64,000 bases of DNA from Spirochaetia bacterium (lineage in GTDB: Bacteria; Spirochaetota; Leptospiria; Turneriellales; JAOUOS01): NCBI GenBank assembly GCA_029880265.1, contig JAOUOT010000005.1, positions 62,001-126,000 on the forward strand. Reading direction: 5' to 3'. Shown in pieces: positions 6,299 through 20,214 of the stretch (positions are counted from its first letter, which is position 1; each line of letters begins with the position of its first letter). The notes under the pieces are model-generated. The model was not told where the DNA came from. It was given only the letters and a program-made list of their open reading frames with translations, and did no database searches. A program made the translations under genes and the position numbers.

Positions 6299-6907
6299 TT
6301 ACTCTCCCAAAAGTCTGAATACCTTTTTTGCCCATGCCTTCCATAACAAATGGGGGCGCTTTCCCGCCGGAAGTTCTTTGAAATATATAGTTTCATAAAG
6401 GGGCGTTTGCACATAATTTTGATAAAGATTAGGAAAATATCTTGTTTCTAGCATCATGCTCCCTTTTAATAAAGACGCGATTGATTTTAAAACCTTTTTT
6501 TCGTCTCTTGAAAATAAATCTTCAAATAAAATAGAGGTTTTATAAACAAAGCCTTTCATGACCAGCGGCCTTCCTTCGCTTGAATTTTCTTTTTCTATGT
6601 TCGGCACGACTTCAATTTCGCCCTTAGCCAGCATCAAATGAAATATTTCATTGAAAAAAACGGGTTGCGGGCTTCCTTCTACGTGAAGATAGGGAAGTTC
6701 GGTTATGGGTTTGCTATATTTTTGAAAATAATGACCGTCAGCGTAAAATAAATGCTTGCATAGTTTTATTCTGTCAAGTTTTTCGGGGAGTTCGTTTATG
6801 AAAAAAAGTACTGCGGCCCTAAGCTTTAAAGCCTGAGGCATTGCCGAAAAAATATCCGATGTTTTTTTTTCCTTTTCGCCGGATTCTTTGTTATTATCTA
6901 TAGACAT
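6299..6907 (-). CDS. Panacea (DUF4065)-like protein
   Basis: The protein has 202 residues. The core RIKLCKHLFYADGHYFQKYSKPI followed by a GSPQPVF segment resembles the Panacea/DUF4065 fold (SocA/GepA type), in which a short 'LqKLlYya...gkpi...GPv' block is typical. The later FSRDEKKVLKSI is in the place of that family's conserved 'fs..E..vl' segment. Panacea domains commonly act as antitoxins or as adaptor/sensor modules. No toxin-like gene flanks it, so this may be a solitary member. Its start codon shares the tetranucleotide CATG with the divergent lipB start. Function beyond the fold is not supported. Confidence 0.5.
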   Translation of the reverse strand: MSIDNNKESGEKEKKTSDIFSAMPQALKLRAAVLFFINELPEKLDRIKLCKHLFYADGHYFQKYSKPITELPYLHVEGSPQPVFFNEIFHLMLAKGEIEVVPNIEKENSSEGRPLVMKGFVYKTSILFEDLFSRDEKKVLKSIASLLKGSMMLETRYFPNLYQNYVQTPLYETIYFKELPAGKRPHLLWKAWAKKVFRLLGE

Positions 6908-8006
6908 GAACTTTACTTATCGGTATTTGGGAACTGTAGATTATAATGAATCATTAAACCTCATGGAAGAAAAAATTCTTACCGCGGCAAATGAAAATAC
7001 ATGTTGTTTTTTTGGCCTACAACACCCTGAAATCTATACACAGGGAATCAAAACGCAAAAAGAGCATATACTGTCATCAAAAATAAATATAGTCTCGGCG
7101 AGAAGAGGCGGCTCTATAACTCTGCATAATCCCGGACAATTGATTTTATATACGATAATACCCTTAAAGTACATTACAACCGGCCTTGAAACATATATTC
7201 GATATTTAGAGTCTGTCATGATTGAGGTTTTGTTTCAAATGAATATTAACGCTTTTTGCATACCCGAACATAGCGGCGTCTGGACAAACAAAGGCAAAAT
7301 CGGTTTTGTCGGCATAGGCGTTAAAAAAAAGACGGTATTTCACGGTATCTCGCTGAACATAAATAACGATTTAAGCGGCTACAAAAAAATTATTAGCTGC
7401 GGATTGCCTTTGCCCGTTACGAAACTCTCTGAACTTAATGATATATATGGCAAAAAAATAAATATTTCTGAAGATATCTTTGAACGAATTTCAAGAAAGA
7501 TGAGCCGCCTTCTTCAAACCAGACTTATGCCTACCGTTAAAATGACTTTAAAATCGCATTTGCAATATTATGAAAAGTATTTTAGAAGCTCGTCTTTGTC
7601 TTTAAAAATTGGCATGCTTTATTTTAACTGCCAAAAATACTGGCATGCGCATGAAGTATGGGAATTTTTCTGGCGACTCTATAAAAATACCGAATATGGA
7701 AGATTTCAAATGGGGCTAATACAGCTTTCTTCGGGCTTATATAAATTAAACGAAAAAATAAATATTATTGGAAGCTTAAGCCAGATTAAAAAAGCCAGAG
7801 AAAAGCTTTATGATAACCAATATACGAATAAAGCGCTATACTCGAGCGATTCAGATAAAAATATCATTGAATATATTGACTTATTGATTTCAAGAATTGA
7901 GCGGCTTAATATTACAGAGAACACAAAAAGTTCAAAAGAAATTGCAAAAAAAATATTTTCACCGTATCTCATTGTCTTAAAAAGCGATTATGAGTCTATT
8001 ATATGA
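6906..8006 (+). CDS. lipB: octanoyltransferase LipB fused to a DUF309 domain
   Basis: LipB moves octanoate from acyl carrier protein to lipoyl domains, the first step of lipoate synthesis. The N-terminal half has all hallmarks: RRGGS at 67-70, HNPGQ at 74-78, the catalytic Lys in NKGKIG (K131), FHG at 145-147 and the catalytic Cys in SCGLP (C165). Residues from about 225 form a DUF309 domain (YFNCQKYWHAHEVWEFFW, then MGLIQLSSGLYKL), a small helical family of unknown function normally found alone. The 366-residue length, against roughly 210 for LipB alone, confirms a fusion. The start overlaps that of the divergent Panacea-like gene. The stop overlaps the next gene by 17 nt, so the two are probably coupled. 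lipA is not in the window. Confidence 0.88.
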   Translation: MNFTYRYLGTVDYNESLNLMEEKILTAANENTCCFFGLQHPEIYTQGIKTQKEHILSSKINIVSARRGGSITLHNPGQLILYTIIPLKYITTGLETYIRYLESVMIEVLFQMNINAFCIPEHSGVWTNKGKIGFVGIGVKKKTVFHGISLNINNDLSGYKKIISCGLPLPVTKLSELNDIYGKKINISEDIFERISRKMSRLLQTRLMPTVKMTLKSHLQYYEKYFRSSSLSLKIGMLYFNCQKYWHAHEVWEFFWRLYKNTEYGRFQMGLIQLSSGLYKLNEKINIIGSLSQIKKAREKLYDNQYTNKALYSSDSDKNIIEYIDLLISRIERLNITENTKSSKEIAKKIFSPYLIVLKSDYESII

Positions 8007-8645: not shown

Positions 8646-10940
8646 TTGAATATGCCGGCCCATAAAAATATTGCGGTTATTATCGGGGCGGGTTTATTGC
8701 AGGTTAATCTTATAAAAGAAGCCAAAAAAAGATATAAAGTCATCGTTATCGATCAAAACAATAAAGCCCCCGGAGCGCGTTTAGCCGACATTTTTTTTTT
8801 AATTTCAACAAGAGATACATCCGCCATAATTAACTCTCTTAAGCCTTTTAAAAAAGAAATCGCCTTATGCGCAGTATCGGGAACCGATATGACGCCTACA
8901 GTGGCCGCCGTTAATGAAGAATTTAATTTGCCGGGAATAAATAAAAAACAAAGTCTTGTGCTTTCAAACAAGGGTAAAATGCGGCATTTTTGCTTAAAAA
9001 ATAATATAGATCAGCCCAATTTTATCGTTACCAAAAAAAAAGAAGAAGCCTACCAGTGGGCCAAAAATAGTTCGCACCCCCATGGGTTTGTCATAAAGCC
9101 TACTCAAAATATGGGAGCAAGAGGCGTTATGCTTCTTCGGTCTGTTAATGACTTATCTTTTGCGTTTGAATATGCGGCCTTTTATTCGCATGAAAAAGAA
9201 ATCATTCTCGAAGAATATTTACCGGCAGACGAATATTCGGTAGACGCCCTTGTTTTCGAAGGAAAATCTTTCGTTACCGGCTTTGCCGATCGCGTTATTG
9301 AAATCAAAGAAAACCGCTATTTTATAGAAACCGGTCATACAATGCCTTCGCGAGCCGGCAAAAAAATATGGGACGCCGTAAACATCTGTATGCAAAATTT
9401 TGCCGACTCGCTTTCAAAGTTATCGAAACGACCCTATCACGGCGCCCTAAAGGCCGATCTTAGGCTTTACAATAATAAAATTTATATAGGCGAAATGGCC
9501 GGTCGTTTATCGGGCGGATACATGAGCACCCATACATATCCCTTTGCGTCGGGCAATAATTTAATGAGCGCTTATCTTGATATTTTAGAAAATAAAGTTC
9601 CCTCATTTATTAAAAAGAATAAAAATAACGCCTACAAAAAAGTCTGCATAGAAAGAGCCATAGTATCTCCCGTAGGCAGGCTTGAAAAATTTGACATGGG
9701 CCCGTCTATAATTTCAAAAGATGAAAATAAATTAAAAAAGAAATTTGTTCACTACAAGAAAAAAGATCTTATTTTTCCTTTAAAAAACAACATAGGAAAG
9801 TTAGCGAATTTTATCATTACTTCGAAAACGCGCGATAGCGCCGAAAAATTCTGGAAAAACATAAATAAAAATATTAAATACAGCGTGACATTGCCGATCT
9901 TTGAAAATAAAGCAATAAGGCAAGAAGCCAGAAAGAAATTTAATAAAAAATTCTGCAAAGTTTGCTGCGTTTGCAACGGAATAAATTGCGCCTCGTCGGT
10001 ACCCGGCATGGGAGGTTTAAAAGACGGTAGTTTGTTTAAAAAAAATATTGAAAGCTTTAATCGCATAAAAATAATCGAAAAGAAACCCGTAAAAAATATA
10101 CGCAAAGAAAAAATTAATCTTTCGTGCGAAATGTTTGGCCAGACTTTTTCGGCCCCTGTATTTTGCGCCCCTATAACCGGCGCCGTAACAAATTTAGGAG
10201 GATGCATCGCCGAATGGGATTTAGGAATAGAAATTGCCGAAGGAGCCCTGTTATCTAATGTACTGCCTTTTTTCGGCGACGGCGCCTCTGAAGACAAATA
10301 CCATATATCATTAAGCGTCATAGAGCAAACAAAAGCGGGATTGCCCGTATTTAAACCGAGAAAAAATAATAACGATATTATAAAAAGAATAAAAGAAGCC
10401 GAAAAAATAAACTCTCTGGCATGGGGAATCGATATTGACGCCGTAAAACTAAAAACTCTTGAAATAAAACATATTGAAACTTCAAAAAAGAATCTTGCCG
10501 ATCTGAAAATTCTCGCTAAATCGTCTTCTCTGCCGTTTGTCGTTAAAGGAATTTCTTCAAAAAAAGAAGCCGATATGGCGGCAGATTCTGGCGCATATGC
10601 CCTGGTTATCGGCAACCACGGCGGCAGAGTCAGCAATTTACTGCCCGATACAGTAAGCCTTGTTGAAGAGTTGGCTTTTTACATAAGGCAAAAACACCCC
10701 GATATAAAAATTCTCGCCGACGGAGGGGTTCGTTCAGGCGGCGATATTTTTAAACTGCTTGCTCTAGGCGCAAACGCCGTACTGATAGGCCGCCCCGTCG
10801 CGATAGCCGCCGTAGGCTTAGGAAGAATCGGCGTTCATTCACTATTGCAAAACTATATTTCTCAATTAACAGAAGCAATGAAAAAAACCGGGGTTTCTGA
10901 CGTTCAACAGATTAATCGTGATCATATAAGATTGGGTTAA
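8646..10940 (+). CDS. ATP-grasp domain fused to FMN-dependent oxidoreductase
   Basis: Two enzymes are joined in 764 residues. Residues ~1-400 form an ATP-grasp ligase of the PurK/carbamoyl-phosphate-synthase-like type: VIIGAGLLQ at the N-terminus, GFVIKPTQNMGARGVML as the ATP lid, and EYLPADEYSVD. Residues ~430-764 match FMN-dependent alpha-hydroxyacid oxidase-like proteins: PVFCAPITG, LPFVVKGIS, ALVIGNHGGR, ILADGGVRSGGD and VLIGRPVA. A Cys cluster opens the second half (C437, C440, C441, C443, C448, then VPGMGG). Stand-alone FMN proteins of anaerobes carry a similar block, by my recollection. It is the last gene of the lipB operon. Substrates are unknown. The joined arrangement suggests a two-step reaction on one intermediate, which is inference. 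Confidence 0.8.
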   Translation: MNMPAHKNIAVIIGAGLLQVNLIKEAKKRYKVIVIDQNNKAPGARLADIFFLISTRDTSAIINSLKPFKKEIALCAVSGTDMTPTVAAVNEEFNLPGINKKQSLVLSNKGKMRHFCLKNNIDQPNFIVTKKKEEAYQWAKNSSHPHGFVIKPTQNMGARGVMLLRSVNDLSFAFEYAAFYSHEKEIILEEYLPADEYSVDALVFEGKSFVTGFADRVIEIKENRYFIETGHTMPSRAGKKIWDAVNICMQNFADSLSKLSKRPYHGALKADLRLYNNKIYIGEMAGRLSGGYMSTHTYPFASGNNLMSAYLDILENKVPSFIKKNKNNAYKKVCIERAIVSPVGRLEKFDMGPSIISKDENKLKKKFVHYKKKDLIFPLKNNIGKLANFIITSKTRDSAEKFWKNINKNIKYSVTLPIFENKAIRQEARKKFNKKFCKVCCVCNGINCASSVPGMGGLKDGSLFKKNIESFNRIKIIEKKPVKNIRKEKINLSCEMFGQTFSAPVFCAPITGAVTNLGGCIAEWDLGIEIAEGALLSNVLPFFGDGASEDKYHISLSVIEQTKAGLPVFKPRKNNNDIIKRIKEAEKINSLAWGIDIDAVKLKTLEIKHIETSKKNLADLKILAKSSSLPFVVKGISSKKEADMAADSGAYALVIGNHGGRVSNLLPDTVSLVEELAFYIRQKHPDIKILADGGVRSGGDIFKLLALGANAVLIGRPVAIAAVGLGRIGVHSLLQNYISQLTEAMKKTGVSDVQQINRDHIRLG

Positions 10941-11057: not shown

Positions 11058-11093
11058 ATTTAGAATATTAGAAATTTTTATTTAGTCTTAGAC
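11058..11093 (-). repeat. degenerate terminal CRISPR repeat
   Basis: This is the leader-distal repeat. Relative to the consensus it has C3 to T, C6 to G and G11 to T (plus-strand positions within the repeat). In crRNA sense the handle becomes TCTAATATTCTAAAT, so TCTAC can no longer pair with GTAGA. The half facing the last spacer is intact. It is therefore the decayed end of the array, and no usable crRNA should form from sequence beyond it. Confidence 0.9.
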
Positions 11094-12608
11094 GGCGTAT
11101 AAAGGACTGTTAGCGTTAAATCTACAATAGTAGAAATTTTTATTTAGTCTTAGACTTTCTGCCGCTTCAAGAGTAATATATTTATCTACAATAGTAGAAA
11201 TTTTTATTTAGTCTTAGACAAAAAATGGGAAAAAATAGTTGAAGAAAATCTACAATAGTAGAAATTTTTATTTAGTCTTAGACACGAAGCGGGCGACTGG
11301 GCTCTGTCGGATCTACAATAGTAGAAATTTTTATTTAGTCTTAGACATGAAAATGTCAGCGCGTACCAGGAAAAATCTACAATAGTAGAAATTTTTATTT
11401 AGTCTTAGACTATGAACATAGAAACACGAGACGACCTATCTACAATAGTAGAAATTTTTATTTAGTCTTAGACATTGAATACCCGTATTTTTATTTTAAA
11501 TCTACAATAGTAGAAATTTTTATTTAGTCTTAGACCCGTTTCTACGGCGGGGCAATCTCTTTTCGATCTACAATAGTAGAAATTTTTATTTAGTCTTAGA
11601 CCCTTTTAAAAATAAAACACCCTTTTGTCATCTACAATAGTAGAAATTTTTATTTAGTCTTAGACGTTTATCGAATTTGAGCGGATTGAATTATCTACAA
11701 TAGTAGAAATTTTTATTTAGTCTTAGACAGCTGTATTTATACAGAAGGTCAAGGAATCTACAATAGTAGAAATTTTTATTTAGTCTTAGACCTCTGCGCC
11801 ACCGTCTAAGATTTTATCATCTACAATAGTAGAAATTTTTATTTAGTCTTAGACTTTCAAAATGAATATCGATACCGTTCTATCTACAATAGTAGAAATT
11901 TTTATTTAGTCTTAGACGAAGAATAACCCGCCTTGCTTACGCTGATCTACAATAGTAGAAATTTTTATTTAGTCTTAGACATTATCGCGTCTTGTCTTAT
12001 TGGCCGGATCTACAATAGTAGAAATTTTTATTTAGTCTTAGACAAGTAAAACAAGTATTTTCAGGATCATATCTACAATAGTAGAAATTTTTATTTAGTC
12101 TTAGACTTTTGACGCGCTAGTCAATCGCTATTCATCTACAATAGTAGAAATTTTTATTTAGTCTTAGACATTAAATTATTAGTATCTCGTAACAAATCTA
12201 CAATAGTAGAAATTTTTATTTAGTCTTAGACCACCGAGCGCTTGTTCTTCCCAGCCTGATCTACAATAGTAGAAATTTTTATTTAGTCTTAGACATTTAC
12301 TGATTACAAAACGTCTATGCCATCTACAATAGTAGAAATTTTTATTTAGTCTTAGACCAGAAGACGAATTTAAAAGTGTGCATGTTATCTACAATAGTAG
12401 AAATTTTTATTTAGTCTTAGACTTTTTTAGTAAAAAATGCTTCGCTAGATCTACAATAGTAGAAATTTTTATTTAGTCTTAGACAAAAATGATGCGCTGA
12501 ACACCGAACGATCTACAATAGTAGAAATTTTTATTTAGTCTTAGACTACTATCCGATACCCTAGAAGGTCAAATCTACAATAGTAGAAATTTTTATTTAG
12601 TCTTAGAC

Positions 12609-12764
12609 ATTCTCTAGTTATCTTTTTGGCGTCGTCATCTACAATAGTAGAAATTTTTATTTAGTCTTAGACTTTCTTTTATCGACGTTAAGGCATTCGG
12701 ATCTACAATAGTAGAAATTTTTATTTAGTCTTAGACATTCTCTAGTTATCTTTTTGGCGTCGTC
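12609..12764 (-). repeat. duplicated spacer within the array
   Basis: The 28-nt spacers at 12609-12636 and 12737-12764 are identical (both begin ATTCTCTAGTT and end GGCGTCGTC). One different spacer (12673-12700) lies between them. Internal recombination between repeats or a second capture of the same protospacer would explain it. Confidence 0.95.
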
Positions 12765-13863
12765 ATCTACAATAGTAGAAATTTTTATTTAGTCTTAGAC
12801 TTTAATCCTATGCGCCCGCTACATCTACATCTACAATAGTAGAAATTTTTATTTAGTCTTAGACTATTATGCTGATCAAGTAAGTGCTATAAATCTACAA
12901 TAGTAGAAATTTTTATTTAGTCTTAGACTTTCTTTATATCATTATACTTTGCGGTATCTACAATAGTAGAAATTTTTATTTAGTCTTAGACATATGAACA
13001 CAGATACCCTGAGTATGATCTACAATAGTAGAAATTTTTATTTAGTCTTAGACGATACGGTGCAAATAGGGCGATAAATATCTACAATAGTAGAAATTTT
13101 TATTTAGTCTTAGACATAGGTCCCCTAATGGCTCTAGTCGATCTACAATAGTAGAAATTTTTATTTAGTCTTAGACTACTCCTTGACGCCAGTCACGTCT
13201 TATCTACAATAGTAGAAATTTTTATTTAGTCTTAGACCATTTCAGTTACAATTATGGCAAGAAAATCTACAATAGTAGAAATTTTTATTTAGTCTTAGAC
13301 TTTTATCAATATAATATCGATGCAAAATCTACAATAGTAGAAATTTTTATTTAGTCTTAGACGACAATCAGAGAGGCTCTTATAATATATCTACAATAGT
13401 AGAAATTTTTATTTAGTCTTAGACCACAAGACGCGTCGGATCAAATTATCATCTACAATAGTAGAAATTTTTATTTAGTCTTAGACTCCCTTTCTACCAT
13501 TATACAATGCCCCGATCTACAATAGTAGAAATTTTTATTTAGTCTTAGACAATATGCGCCGCTTCAGTACGTGTCAATCTACAATAGTAGAAATTTTTAT
13601 TTAGTCTTAGACTCTTTGTATCTTAAGCCGCACGGTACATCTACAATAGTAGAAATTTTTATTTAGTCTTAGACATAATATTAGAAATAGAAAAATATCA
13701 AATCTACAATAGTAGAAATTTTTATTTAGTCTTAGACTATATGACACATCCGTTAAGTTTATTATCTACAATAGTAGAAATTTTTATTTAGTCTTAGACT
13801 CGTATGTCCATGCGTATAAATAACCATATCTACAATAGTAGAAATTTTTATTTAGTCTTAGAC

Positions 13864-14039: not shown

Positions 14040-14312
14040 TTATTCGAAAATAACTAAATCACTTTCTTCATTAATTGCATAGCCAAATCTATGAATTTCT
14101 TTATGGTTCAAGTCAAATATTATAACACTATCGGCTTTTGTAAATTTTTTTTCAAAATCGTTTCTTATCTCTGCCATAATATTTTTTAATATTCTTTCTG
14201 AATTTTCAATTTCATATACAGAAAACTGTAATCGGCGCCCATACTTTTTTAAGTATCTGGAAAATTTGGTTCTTAACTTATCGTTTGTTATGTCATAACT
14301 TATTATCAACAT
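14040..14312 (-). CDS. cas2: CRISPR-associated endoribonuclease-fold Cas2
   Basis: Cas2 forms the dimer at the centre of the Cas1-Cas2 integrase that inserts new spacers. The 90-residue protein begins MLIISYDITNDK, the usual Cas2 beta-strand with its conserved Asp. It continues with KYGRRLQFSVYEIE, a typical second block, and has the compact ferredoxin-like length. A TTG at 14327 would overlap cas1; the ATG at 14312 gives the standard N-terminus and leaves an 11-nt gap after the cas1 stop. It is the last cas gene before the leader. Confidence 0.93.
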   Translation of the reverse strand: MLIISYDITNDKLRTKFSRYLKKYGRRLQFSVYEIENSERILKNIMAEIRNDFEKKFTKADSVIIFDLNHKEIHRFGYAINEESDLVIFE

Positions 14313-14323
14313 GATTCTACAAA

Positions 14324-15298
14324 TCAATTAGAAATTGAAAATATAGGATATTCTCTTATGTCTTTGTCTTGAAAAAAACATCGATAAAATTTTTGTATAA
14401 ATATAAATATTTCTTCTTTATGGTCTAATAAATCATGAAATAATGAATCTGTATAATGTCTACTTTTATTCTTTCTTAAAACATAAATATTTTTTAAAAG
14501 CTTGAAATCTTCATCTTTATATTTTTTTAAATTAAAACCTTTTCGTATATTTTTATCAATTATGCATCTGAAAGGTTCTACAAAGTCACAAACAAGAGAT
14601 TTTCTTTGATAAAAAAGGCGATGATAAAAACCTTTATAAACATCAAAACCGTATAACCTTAAATTAGCCTCGATAAAATTAAATAAAAATGTATAACCAA
14701 TATCCATTAAAGTATTTATTGGATCTATTTTAGTTCGCGGTTTTCTTGATTGCCAACCATGTTCAGAAAAATACGCTTTAAAATATATTTTACTCGCATT
14801 GCCTTCTTTTCCCAATAATTTTGAATTAACCCCATTCTCATCTGAACCCAAACCATATAATATGTCAGAAATTCTTTCTATTGCATGAGAAATTTCACTA
14901 TTCTTGTTTCTTAAATATTTTAAATTATTTACTTGATTTGAAATTTTTAAACGTACAAAATACAAAGATAAATTAAAATTATCATTTTGTAGGTACTGCT
15001 TTTCTTTTAATAACGTATTGCCTTCAGAGTATGCGCCCATGTATGAGTACGGCTTGAAATTATCTTTTAAGAATATCAATGAAAAACCATACTTTGAAGA
15101 TTTTTCTAAAAGATGGCTTGTGATCGTAATAGACCCAATTACGATCACAGCGAATATTTTAATACATGGCATTTGGTTTTTTATTTTCCCCGTATCTTTT
15201 TCTTCGAAAACAAGATTTTCATTTGAAAAACGAATTTTATCTTCTTTAGAAAAAATAAAAACTATACTCTTATGCTGAAAATCCTTTAAACTAAGCAT
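14324..15298 (-). CDS. cas1: CRISPR-associated integrase Cas1
   Basis: Cas1 is the metal-dependent integrase of CRISPR adaptation. The 324-residue protein has the metal ligands expected of the family: E165 in LLGKEGNASKIYF, H226 in GFYHRLFY, and D238/E241 in CDFVEPFR. DPINTLMDIGYTFLFN corresponds to the conserved 'NP.N..L..GY' helix. The N-terminal beta domain (residues 1-90) is present. The gene overlaps cas4 by 13 nt at its start and lies 11 nt before cas2. The locus order cas12a-cas4-cas1-cas2 is the usual type V-A arrangement, and the gene appears intact. Confidence 0.96.
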   Translation of the reverse strand: MLSLKDFQHKSIVFIFSKEDKIRFSNENLVFEEKDTGKIKNQMPCIKIFAVIVIGSITITSHLLEKSSKYGFSLIFLKDNFKPYSYMGAYSEGNTLLKEKQYLQNDNFNLSLYFVRLKISNQVNNLKYLRNKNSEISHAIERISDILYGLGSDENGVNSKLLGKEGNASKIYFKAYFSEHGWQSRKPRTKIDPINTLMDIGYTFLFNFIEANLRLYGFDVYKGFYHRLFYQRKSLVCDFVEPFRCIIDKNIRKGFNLKKYKDEDFKLLKNIYVLRKNKSRHYTDSLFHDLLDHKEEIFIFIQKFYRCFFQDKDIREYPIFSISN

Positions 15299-15855
15299 GT
15301 TTCTATACTCAAATTATAATCACACAAGCCATTATAAATACATTGTTTACATTTTTCTTTATTTGCTTTAAATTCATTACGAAGATTATACGATTTGATT
15401 TCCTCAATTACATTTTCAAATTCTTGTTTTTCTTTTTTAGACGGTATGTGAATATGATATCTTTTGTTATCTGATAGAGAATGGAATACAAGTTTTTGAA
15501 TGTCAAAACCCATTTCAGTCATACAATAATATTGAGCGTACATTTGATATCTATACCCGTCATAAATTTTTATTATCTTGCGTTTTCGTTCTATCAATAT
15601 TTTATTATCGCTGTCATATATATCTATTTTTCCAAAAATATTATATCGTTCTGAATATACTTCCATGTTTGTTATAATATTTTTCTTTGTTGAAAATTTA
15701 TTTTCTTCAATGACTTTATGGGCAATTCTACCCTTCGTTTGGGCTTCATTGTGGTAATTTTTTTTAGAATAATTGCCGTAAATATTGTGAAAATAAATCG
15801 AACGCGGGCAGAAAATAAAATCGTTCAAATATGAAATAAGAATATAAGATTCCAT
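15286..15855 (-). CDS. cas4: CRISPR-associated exonuclease Cas4
   Basis: Cas4 is a RecB-family nuclease with an iron-sulfur cluster that trims prespacers and selects those next to a PAM. The four cluster cysteines are visible as C16 (FIFCPRSIYF) and C169, C172 and C178 (CKQCIYNGLC). The nuclease core has GRIAHKVIE, GKIDIYD, the IERKRK motif and RYQMYAQYY, the QxxxY motif. The length of 189 residues is normal. It starts 21 nt after the cas12a stop and overlaps cas1 by 13 nt, so the adaptation genes are translationally linked. Confidence 0.93.
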   Translation of the reverse strand: MESYILISYLNDFIFCPRSIYFHNIYGNYSKKNYHNEAQTKGRIAHKVIEENKFSTKKNIITNMEVYSERYNIFGKIDIYDSDNKILIERKRKIIKIYDGYRYQMYAQYYCMTEMGFDIQKLVFHSLSDNKRYHIHIPSKKEKQEFENVIEEIKSYNLRNEFKANKEKCKQCIYNGLCDYNLSIETCLV

Positions 15856-15876: not shown

Positions 15877-18800
15877 TTATTTCATCTTTTCTATTTGTAA
15901 TTTCACTACATCTTGCTTTTGAGCGTAATTTTGCCAGTCTTCTTTGGTTACGGTAAAACTTTTTATAAATTTAATGAATTTTTCTGCAAGAGGCGAAAGT
16001 TTTTTATTCTCATATAAAGAAATAACCTCAGGAACTTCTCTGCCGACAATAAGACACCATTCTTCTAATAGCGGTTTTAGCAATGTTTCGTCTTTATATT
16101 TTTTCAGCTCGGTATTATAATTTATAATTTTATTCTTGTCTAAAATCCCATGAAGTTTTTGACGAAGTAAATTCTTATGCAGTATAATTATGCCTTTTCT
16201 GGCAATATTATACGCGCCGTTAGCGTCGCCGTTTTTGGGCAAAATGCTCTCGCTTTCTCTGAGATTTTTACTGTTAAAAAACGGTTCAACCGGAGAAGAT
16301 ATAAAATCATTTTCATCTTTGCCTTTTTCAATGTCGGGGTCGGTAACTCGAAGATTTAATATAAGAGTAAAATAATAATGTAATGATTTTATAACAGAAT
16401 CATCGACTTTCTTTAGCAGAGGCAATAAATTTTCTTCAACTGTATATTCAATATTCGCTTTTTGAAATAATGAAATAACTTCTTCATTCACATTGAAAAA
16501 AATATTTTCTTTTTTATTTTTATCGAACCTTGAACGTTCTACACAACTGCATACCTTCCAAATCGTGTTTGACGGCAAATTGTCAATATCGCCGCTGTAA
16601 AGTTTTCTTAAATCATAAATAAACTCAAAGTACTTTCCGTTATATTTTATGCTCTCAAATTTTTGGAAAAAATCTCTTGTTTTTAACTTGTCATACTGGT
16701 GGTATATATTCTGCATATAACCTGTTACAGGATCGACCTTTGAAGTATAACCGGCTGTTGTATAAAAAAGAATGCCCGATTGTTTGCCGAGTTTTTCAAA
16801 ACTTTCAAACTGCCCTGTTAACTGCCACGCATTCAAATAGTGCCCAGGTTTGCCAAATTCTTTTTCTTTAAAAACAAGATAATTTAATTTTTCAATTAAA
16901 GCGCGTTCAAATTTCTGGTAAACCTGTTTTTCAACCTTAAAACGGCCCCTTTTGAAACCGGCATTTAAATCTTCAAGAACAACAATCGCATTATTATCAA
17001 TAATAAGTCTCGCGAGCTTATGAACAATCTGAGATAAGTAGCCCGATTTTAATTCTTTTATGTTTTCAATTGTCTGCCAGCTTTTTCGTGCCGCGTCGCG
17101 GCCTTTTTCTTTTTTATCAAGAATTTCATGATAAGGAGTTTCTATTTCGCCGCCCGTATATTTAGATTTTACAGTATTTAAGCTGCCCTGTTCTAAAATC
17201 TCGCCTTTTTGGTTTATAAGAGAATAGTAAAGCAAATGTTTTTCGCCCCTGTCAATGCCAAGAATGTTTACTTTTTCATTATCTCTTAAAAAGGATTGAA
17301 TTTCAGAATTTAAATAAGAATTACCGTCAGTTTTGAAATTTAAAGTAATGGGGCAGTGAAAGAAATATTTATTCTCTGTAAAACGCTTATCTTTTATCAA
17401 ATCGATATCAAATTTACTAGTCTTTTTACTCGCTTTTACATTTTTATTCGTAAGCGCTTCTCCTTTTTTATGAACAACTCTATTCTTCTCTGCTATCGAC
17501 GCCGGTCTGTAAAAAAGCTCTGCTTCGCCGTTTAATTTAGCGACGACATTTTTAAGATTTTTATCGTCAAAAAGCATGCGCCAATATGTAGTATGTAAAT
17601 TTTCTTTGCCCTTTGAGTGCATCGAAAAATCTTTATTGTATATTTGAAAAAGATAGAGCTTGCCTTCATCGACAAGTTTATCGATATATGCTGATTTTAT
17701 ATTATCAAAGCTTATTTTATAGCCTTGAGATTCAACTTCATGAAAAAATTGAGAAATGTCTTCATACTTTTCAGTATCAGTAAATTTAAAGTTAAAGTTT
17801 TGCCATTCTGGGTGTTTTTGTAGAGCATTTTTATAAAACTCAACTAAAGTATGACATTCTTTAAGAATGAAATTTTTTGACGATTTCTTAAAGGTTTCAT
17901 TTTCTTTGATTTTCAAAATTAGATTTGAAGGGTTAAAGAATTCAATATTTTTATCGCTAAAAAAAACCTTAGGCAGCATTTTATTGGGACCTGGCAGCAA
18001 CTTATAGTTCACTTTACGATAAGAAGGCTCGTTTTTTGCCGCCAATATTTCTTTTTGCAAATCTTTCTTTCTTTGCATTATTTTAGAATTCGGGTTTTCA
18101 TTGCCATTTGAATTAATTTGATAATCAAAAGAAAAGTTTTTACCTTGGGGCATAATGCCAAGATAGTAGAATTTATCTTTGATGAATAATAAAGATTTAT
18201 TTGCAGTTTCTTTATTTATATCCCAACCCGCAGCCAATGTGCTGTTTTCAAAATTGAGTTTTATTTTATCTATTGAGTACGGTTTTTTGGTCAGATAGTT
18301 TCTTGCTTTATTATACAAATCTAAAACCGAAAACTGCAAAAGCAGATTTTGAAGTCTATTTTGAAAATCTGTGTCTATTTCTTGTTCTTTGGCGAGGTCT
18401 TTGCTTCTTATGATAAAACTGTCAATAAACCTGTGTAATTCAAGGGCAGAATCTAAAAATTCTTTTATTGAATTTTTTGCCTCGTCTTTTTTTTCAAAAG
18501 AATTTTCTTTAAATATTTTTTCAATAGCGCTGTTTTCTGAATTCTTCTTTATCGTATTTTTCTCAGAATGATTTTTATTTTCACACTCAAGCAATGCTTT
18601 AAGCTTATGCTCAATATAAGTTGTAATGCTTATATCTTTGGGCCATGTTTCTTTTAACGCTTCAGGATCGTTTTCAATACAAATCAATATCATTTTATTA
18701 ATATCTTTGAAACTTAGAGTTTTTGCTTTTTTTAATTTAAGTTTTTCGGCTTTAGGCAAGGCATTGCCATTTTCCTGTTTTTTATTTTCAATTAAGTTAA

Positions 18801-20214
18801 AGTAAATATTATCAATCGCGTTAAAGCCGCCAAACAAATCAACAGAAATTTTTCTTATGAATTCGCGCGAAAGATAAAATAAGTCAGGGTTTGATTTTAT
18901 TTCACTGAATAAATATTTAAATTCTTCATAAACCTGTTCTATAAAATTTCTCTTTTTTTGTGCGCCCGTTTCTATCAGGTTTCGATCTTTCTTGCTGAGA
19001 ATATCTTCATAAAAATATTTTAACTCTCTAATTAAATCTTCATCGTTTTCAAAAGCGTCTATGAAATTTCTCTCTGAATCGCTTAGAATCTGCTTATATA
19101 ATGGTTGAAGGGCAGAAAAATCTCGTTTCTCGCCATGAAGCTGCTGCCTTGTAAGATTAATAATTTCGTTAATGCCTTGAATTTTTTCTTTGCCTGCCTG
19201 CGCCGGCAAGCCGCCAAGAGTTATATTGTAAAGATCAATACCTTCTTGTGAAATAAAATGCAGAAAAGATTCGGGATTAAATGTATTTTCGATTGAAATA
19301 AGCGCGTTTCTGTTTTTAAGCTCTTTTTGCAGACGTTTCAATTTATCATTTACAGAAAAATTGGCTTCTTTTAACTTTTTAACGTTTTCGGTTTTTTGAA
19401 TATTCGCCTGAAATTTTTGCCATCTTTGTATATTAGCGAAAAAGAAATCGAGATTTTCTTCAAGAATACGATGAGCAATGGAGGTTTTTTTAAGTTTTTT
19501 ATTATCGCCTTCGGTATCATAAATGTTTTTTCGGTTTTGATTAAAGCCGCTAAAATAGGTTGTAAAACCTGTAAATGAATTTACTACTTCAGCAAGCTCT
19601 TTTTTTAAATACTCTGTATTGTCGTCTTTAGTTATATCTATCGCATTTTTTTCAAGAAGCCATCTTAATATAGAAAACGAATCGCTGTTTTCATGAATAA
19701 GGCTTACGCCATTTTTTTTAATTGAAAATTTTTCAGATTCGATATTTTTCATCTCTTTTTGAGAGAGATTCTTCCAATCATTCGCGGCTTGTTCAAAAGC
19801 TTCTTTTAATTTCTTAGAAAATTTCAATTTTTCTTCTTGTAGAAGATCTTTTTTATTATCATTTAGCGCGTCAGAATTCGCGTTATCACGATTGAGCCAT
19901 AGCGAGAATAAGTTCTCTATATCATCAGATTTAATTATTTTTGAAAGTATTTCATAATCAAGAGCTTTACTTATGAAAAGCTGGTGCATTTTATTCATGG
20001 CTTTTTTCAAGACTTTATAATTATCAGCTAAATCTTTATCTTTACCGCTGGTGATATTATGACCGTTTTCCCAATGACTTTCAATAATATTGTGTTTTTT
20101 AATGTTTTCTTCTGTCTTGCCGACAGGCTTTAATTCAAATCGCAGTGTTTTTTGTACTTTATACCTTTGGGTAAAATTGTCCCATATACATTTATTATTT
20201 TTTTTGTTATTCAT
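15877..20214 (-). CDS. cas12a: CRISPR effector nuclease Cas12a (Cpf1), long form
   Basis: Cas12a processes its own pre-crRNA and cuts target DNA with a single RuvC site. The N-terminus has TQRYKVQKTLRFELKPVGKT. The wedge region includes LPKVFFSDKN, YLFQIYNKDFS and KLNGEAELFYRPAS. RuvC-I is GIDRGEKH (D988), the bridge helix is near ARKSWQTIENIKEL, RuvC-II is VLEDLNAGFKRGRF (E1081), and RuvC-III is GDANGAYNIARKG (D1330). The Nuc lobe has WKVCSCVERSRF and DFISSPV. All three catalytic acids are present. At 1445 residues it is longer than As (1307), Fn (1300) or Lb (1228). Extra sequence lies before RuvC-I, including a Lys/Asn-rich stretch near 540-575, and between RuvC-III and the C-terminal TKEDWQNYAQ. 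ATG 20214 follows GGGGGTT and a promoter; the 20286 start lies upstream of that promoter. Confidence 0.97.
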   Translation of the reverse strand: MNNKKNNKCIWDNFTQRYKVQKTLRFELKPVGKTEENIKKHNIIESHWENGHNITSGKDKDLADNYKVLKKAMNKMHQLFISKALDYEILSKIIKSDDIENLFSLWLNRDNANSDALNDNKKDLLQEEKLKFSKKLKEAFEQAANDWKNLSQKEMKNIESEKFSIKKNGVSLIHENSDSFSILRWLLEKNAIDITKDDNTEYLKKELAEVVNSFTGFTTYFSGFNQNRKNIYDTEGDNKKLKKTSIAHRILEENLDFFFANIQRWQKFQANIQKTENVKKLKEANFSVNDKLKRLQKELKNRNALISIENTFNPESFLHFISQEGIDLYNITLGGLPAQAGKEKIQGINEIINLTRQQLHGEKRDFSALQPLYKQILSDSERNFIDAFENDEDLIRELKYFYEDILSKKDRNLIETGAQKKRNFIEQVYEEFKYLFSEIKSNPDLFYLSREFIRKISVDLFGGFNAIDNIYFNLIENKKQENGNALPKAEKLKLKKAKTLSFKDINKMILICIENDPEALKETWPKDISITTYIEHKLKALLECENKNHSEKNTIKKNSENSAIEKIFKENSFEKKDEAKNSIKEFLDSALELHRFIDSFIIRSKDLAKEQEIDTDFQNRLQNLLLQFSVLDLYNKARNYLTKKPYSIDKIKLNFENSTLAAGWDINKETANKSLLFIKDKFYYLGIMPQGKNFSFDYQINSNGNENPNSKIMQRKKDLQKEILAAKNEPSYRKVNYKLLPGPNKMLPKVFFSDKNIEFFNPSNLILKIKENETFKKSSKNFILKECHTLVEFYKNALQKHPEWQNFNFKFTDTEKYEDISQFFHEVESQGYKISFDNIKSAYIDKLVDEGKLYLFQIYNKDFSMHSKGKENLHTTYWRMLFDDKNLKNVVAKLNGEAELFYRPASIAEKNRVVHKKGEALTNKNVKASKKTSKFDIDLIKDKRFTENKYFFHCPITLNFKTDGNSYLNSEIQSFLRDNEKVNILGIDRGEKHLLYYSLINQKGEILEQGSLNTVKSKYTGGEIETPYHEILDKKEKGRDAARKSWQTIENIKELKSGYLSQIVHKLARLIIDNNAIVVLEDLNAGFKRGRFKVEKQVYQKFERALIEKLNYLVFKEKEFGKPGHYLNAWQLTGQFESFEKLGKQSGILFYTTAGYTSKVDPVTGYMQNIYHQYDKLKTRDFFQKFESIKYNGKYFEFIYDLRKLYSGDIDNLPSNTIWKVCSCVERSRFDKNKKENIFFNVNEEVISLFQKANIEYTVEENLLPLLKKVDDSVIKSLHYYFTLILNLRVTDPDIEKGKDENDFISSPVEPFFNSKNLRESESILPKNGDANGAYNIARKGIIILHKNLLRQKLHGILDKNKIINYNTELKKYKDETLLKPLLEEWCLIVGREVPEVISLYENKKLSPLAEKFIKFIKSFTVTKEDWQNYAQKQDVVKLQIEKMK

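Follow-up and report, generated by a model that had tools for sequence, protein, structure and literature searches.

The cas12a gene at 15877-20214 on the minus strand of the window, that is, the whole stretch of 64,000 nucleotides analysed here, which comes from a bacterium of the spirochaete phylum, encodes a protein of 1445 amino acids with an unusually long C-terminal tail, in which one real, single block of about 60 residues is, according to the alignment, inserted and private so far. The protein is likely a type V-A Cas12a belonging to a long subclade, the insert being a probable surface helical elaboration with only a small effect on catalysis.

Apart from the insert, conserved sequence features indicate that the protein is most likely an ordinary Cas12a, a DNA-targeting type V-A effector. 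The gene starts with an ATG at 20214, a few bases after a GGGGG that is a plausible ribosome-binding site, and ends with a stop codon at 15877-15879. The curated Cas12a profile TIGR04330 matches residues 12-1347 with 946.9 bits (cutoff 300), five Cas12a Pfam domains are present, among them the Nuc domain PF18510 (E 1.5e-19), and the sequence relatives in the PDB are Cas12a/Cpf1 entries. The D-E-D triad is kept as D988 in RuvC-I (17251-17253), E1081 in RuvC-II (16972-16974) and D1330 in RuvC-III (16225-16227), all on the minus strand, and the spacing from the first to the last of these acids, 342 residues, is normal for the family (median 345, range 333-373, n=101). An earlier note on this DNA had given the coordinates and length of the gene, the three catalytic acids and the normal RuvC-I to RuvC-III spacing, and all of these proved exact. 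In addition, the Nuc arginine R1289 is invariant in the alignment with other Cas12a, and H915/K924/K941 correspond, in a pairwise alignment, to H843/K852/K869 of FnCas12a, which we take to be the crRNA-processing residues of that enzyme. The GWxxxK motif of the PAM region is retained as GWDINK from residue 663 and the LLPGPNKMLPKVFF segment is intact; an effect on PAM use, raised in the earlier note, is thus not indicated. A zinc ribbon and an insertion domain in the nuclease lobe characterise Cas12a2, Cas12a3 and Cas12a4 (PMC12851939); none of the PDB sequence matches of the protein carries one of these three labels, and its Nuc domain is that of Cas12a, both of which speak against membership in these families. 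When its own genome was searched for Cas12a, the single match was the protein itself.

The surrounding locus looks like a complete type V-A CRISPR-Cas system, canonical in gene content and repeats apart from the insert. On the minus strand, cas12a is followed by cas4 of type V (15286-15855; TIGR04328, 222.1 bits, cutoff 70), cas1 of type V (14324-15298; TIGR04329, 359.5 bits, cutoff 300) and cas2 (14040-14327; TIGR01573, 45 bits, cutoff 24.5), and a CRISPR array on the same strand spans 11058-13863, with 44 spacers between 45 repeats of 36 nt that end in TCTACTATTGTAGAT, the last repeat being degenerate. The repeat end UCUAC-UAUU-GUAGAU (TCTAC-N4-GTAGA in DNA) folds as the usual Cas12a-type hairpin, a fold unremarkable against shuffled sequences (z -1.6). 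The conserved residues and the locus together suggest that the effector would process its own pre-crRNA, find a DNA target next to a T-rich PAM and use its single RuvC site to cleave the two strands. Comparison of the spacers with phage records gave no usable protospacer or PAM, the matches listed having E values of 0.2 or worse. One spacer, GACGACGCCAAAAAGATAACTAGAGAAT, occurs twice in the array: counted from the leader side, its copies are numbers 18 and 20, separated by a different spacer.

Several further observations were made in the window and in the viral records. Two open reading frames on the plus strand of the window have composite domain content: 6888-8006 contains both a lipoyl ligase A/B catalytic domain and a DUF309 domain, and 8646-10940 combines an ATP-grasp part with an FMN-dependent dehydrogenase domain. 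Solitary Cas12a-type repeats AATTTCTACTNTTGTAGAT are found in Leptospira phage vB_LbrZ_5399-LE1 (KF114879.1; L161:760-870) and in the viral contigs L165, L173, L176/L190 and L182, where, by eye, each is immediately preceded by a type I-like repeat end (GTGGATTGAAAC or ATGTGGGGTTGAAAC-like) and closely followed by a terminator-like stretch. Judged likewise by eye, these are candidate RNA anti-CRISPRs (Racr, PMC10651486) directed against type I and type V-A together.

For comparison, Cas12a genes were gathered from 80 genome contigs, kept from 424 relatives found; the contigs were scanned with an alignment as query, a single-protein query having given no match. Whole-genome searches covered the window's own phylum and own class, the phyla of one Lentisphaeria and one Phycisphaerae genome, the class Lentisphaeria and the order of an Opitutae genome. 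Several of these searches sampled genomes evenly out of larger groups, and the 104 distinct complete C-termini obtained are a modest sample; one sequence, L106, is identical to another, L042. Viral and plasmid records yielded two weak short viral matches and one plasmid match to Cas12a, and phage records yielded no match. One of the genes collected, L107 (G018:C1:628999-632706), contains one in-frame TGA that splits it into open frames measuring 665 and 605 aa, either a pseudogene or a sequencing error.

In the tree, the protein groups at 100 support with five sister Cas12a: G027 (L007/L110), from its own class, L024, L025 and L026 from Lentisphaeria, and L065 from Opitutae, which share 42-51% identity with it in aligned columns. 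A terminal DVVKxQ-like end is common to all of them except L026. The first catalytic acid falls late in the protein because of several extra stretches upstream, namely residues 157-195, 701-724, 45-56, 276-289 and 411-418. The REC1 element at 157-195 (19630-19746, minus strand), for which a second model of residues 1-653 predicts short helices at 171-174 and 176-188, and the element at 701-724 (18043-18114, minus strand), upstream of the LLPGPNKMLPKVFF segment, were both found in L065, L024, L025 and L026 in a focused alignment, and a similar KGVSL stretch, judged by eye, occurs in the G027 gene within its N-terminal half. The three smaller extras have low occupancy among relatives in the MAFFT alignment, the comparison with sisters having covered 157-195 and 701-724. 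As a private feature, growth of the recognition lobe was therefore rejected for its two largest additions, which are common to the sister clade; the earlier note had placed growth both there and in the tail, of which the tail stands as special and the lobe is only partly borne out.

A separate group of long Cas12a, L010, L122, L123 and L158 (genomes G019, G004, G025 and G972; about 1370-1490 aa), occupies a long branch that has 100 support, and the 157-195 element aligns in this divergent group as well. Their sequence is altered at the site occupied by LLPGxNKMLPKVFF in other Cas12a, and their C-terminal ends are extended past the terminal Trp. The tails of L122, L158, L010 and L123, at 70-87 residues, were considered as carriers of the same insert and set aside, as most of the extra residues follow the conserved Trp and the branch is a separate one.

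The tail is where the protein departs from its relatives. It has 115 residues after D1330, against 23-87 in the other 103 distinct complete C-termini, 43-64 in the sisters; the next longest tails measure 87, 77, 74 and 70, and the median, the protein itself included, is 46.5. The distance between D1330 and the conserved Trp in the terminal helix amounts to 97 residues; in 98 others its median is 36 and it never exceeds 54, which puts the net size of the insert at about 61 residues. The alignment places the insert at residues 1364-1420 (15955-16125, minus strand), with uncertain edges that may extend it to 1353-1420, and columns 1364-1420 are nearly empty in relatives, with a mean occupancy of 0.001 among 88 of them (MAFFT). 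The insert is missing from 103/103 other Cas12a C-termini compared. Past it, homology to sister ends resumes in the terminal segment TKEDWQNYAQ... (residues 1421-1445; 15880-15954, minus strand), where TKEDWQNYAQKQDVVKLQIEKMK stands opposite SKRDWQEYVQSDAVVKAQTAKLNK of L024, and the extra residues are therefore an in-frame insertion and neither a read-through nor a frameshifted end. The earlier reading of the tail as unusually long and enlarged by one block, and not by scattered small loops, is borne out in this sample, as is its presumed rarity among ordinary Cas12a; the note had also asked whether close homologues share the insert, and all five sisters lack it.

At the DNA level the insert is, as judged from its composition, in-frame, coding-like sequence. 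The 204-nt stretch encoding residues 1353-1420 is free of stops in frame, a state reached by 0.07% of 20,000 base shuffles, and its codon score of 0.241 falls inside the spread seen elsewhere in the gene (0.285 +/- 0.085), against values of -0.42 and -0.53 in the two alternative forward frames. Its GC content, 0.279 against 0.309 +/- 0.034 for 68-codon windows across the gene, is unremarkable, and no second DNA copy was found in its own genome. For a feature carried by one genome only, a 50-contig draft of which no second strain was found, an error of assembly might come to mind, or a recent and damaging insertion into a gene that is decaying, but either is highly improbable given the stop-free frame, the gene-like codon usage, the ordinary GC, the lack of another genomic copy, the homology that continues past the insert up to the stop codon and the intact remainder of the locus. 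As for its source, a repeat, a mobile element or a self-duplication was rejected, since the window and the protein itself gave only weak short matches (best E 0.034) and the genome no second copy; a recognisable domain was rejected likewise, with no Pfam match to the insert even at E 10 and nothing better than E 0.098 in a PDB sequence search. That the insert is in frame, coding-like, flanked by homology and absent from 103 others counts for a lineage-specific gain, and the variable length of the loop between the RuvC-III and terminal helices across the family, with 32-54 residues from D to Trp elsewhere, counts for the elaboration of that loop. The alignment thus shows that this lineage gained about 60 residues as an in-frame segment, in a loop of variable length.

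An AlphaFold2 model of residues 640-1445, built with 68 aligned sequences (mean pLDDT 85.9, pTM 0.84), matches solved Cas12a structures in Foldseek, the best being 8qwf. In this model the insert takes the form of four short helices, 1366-1372, 1376-1390, 1394-1402 and 1406-1418, in agreement with the earlier expectation of a helical element, at a low pLDDT of 46-68 per block that returns to 86-94 in the conserved terminal helices. Just ahead of it the RuvC-III helix is lengthened to 32 residues (1329-1360; 16135-16230, minus strand). Because this helix starts with D1330 and is followed by the insert, the insert is probably located at its far end and not, as the earlier note had it, beside the catalytic site; an ideal helix, rising 1.5 A per residue, would put roughly 45 A between D1330 and the point where the insert begins. 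The helical bundle, predicted at low confidence, could nevertheless fold back.

These predictions bear on whether the insert acts on catalysis. It might be a regulatory element packed against RuvC/Nuc that tunes target release or trans-cleavage, to which its position in the model directly after the RuvC-III helix, the substrate loading performed by a private nuclease-lobe insertion in Cas12a3 (PMC12851939) and the switching of activity by a domain inserted into the RuvC of Cas12a (PMC12328240) lend some support; the long helix, which suggests that the insert begins far from D1330, and the lack of conserved relatives of the insert in which constraint could be detected make this unlikely. That the insert serves as a surface for interaction or shielding, directed for instance at anti-CRISPR proteins or at a second Cas protein, is decidedly unlikely: nothing specific pointing to it was found, and neither Pfam nor the PDB contains a significant relative of the insert sequence, even if private surface elements of defence proteins are in general a common target of conflict. 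It is very unlikely that the insert forms a new functional subdomain with a role in choosing or loading substrates, in gating the release of products or in blocking anti-CRISPR proteins, an arrangement that would be comparable in kind to the tRNA-loading domain of Cas12a3. An insert whose open frame and helical character have been maintained could be functional, and artificial insertions that are tolerated or switch activity (PMC12328240), together with substrate loading in Cas12a3 (PMC12851939), leave room for one. The surface helical elaboration favoured here is consistent with the model and the alignment: the insert would fold as a small surface bundle where the RuvC-III helix ends, away from D1330, and catalysis would probably be little affected; the bundle may offer a binding or shielding surface. 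If neutral, the insert would mark a natural insertion-tolerant site after the RuvC-III helix of Cas12a, useful for engineered fusions; if functional, it would represent a module for control or interaction, specific to this lineage, in a widely used family of genome-editing enzymes. In both cases it adds only a little to the known diversity of Cas12a.

Among known systems, the closest solved structures by both sequence and fold are ReChb Cas12a (PDB 8qwd/8qwe/8qwf) and FnCas12a, whose domains and catalytic residues are as in the present protein; they differ in being shorter, with 1261 and 1300 residues, respectively, and in having no tail insert. The Cas12a-M57 family, the largest Cas12a found in its survey at about 1,400 aa on average (PMC7757703), is similarly large, a likeness in described size. 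Cas12a, RuvC included, can accommodate artificial domain insertions, and these can switch its activity (PMC12328240). The tRNA-loading domain of Cas12a3, a private nuclease-lobe insertion with no structural relative in the PDB and a proven substrate loader (PMC12851939), resembles the insert in that both are private insertions into the nuclease lobe; Cas12a3, however, is a different family with a zinc ribbon and carries its insertion at 855-960, whereas the insert described here adjoins the terminal helix.
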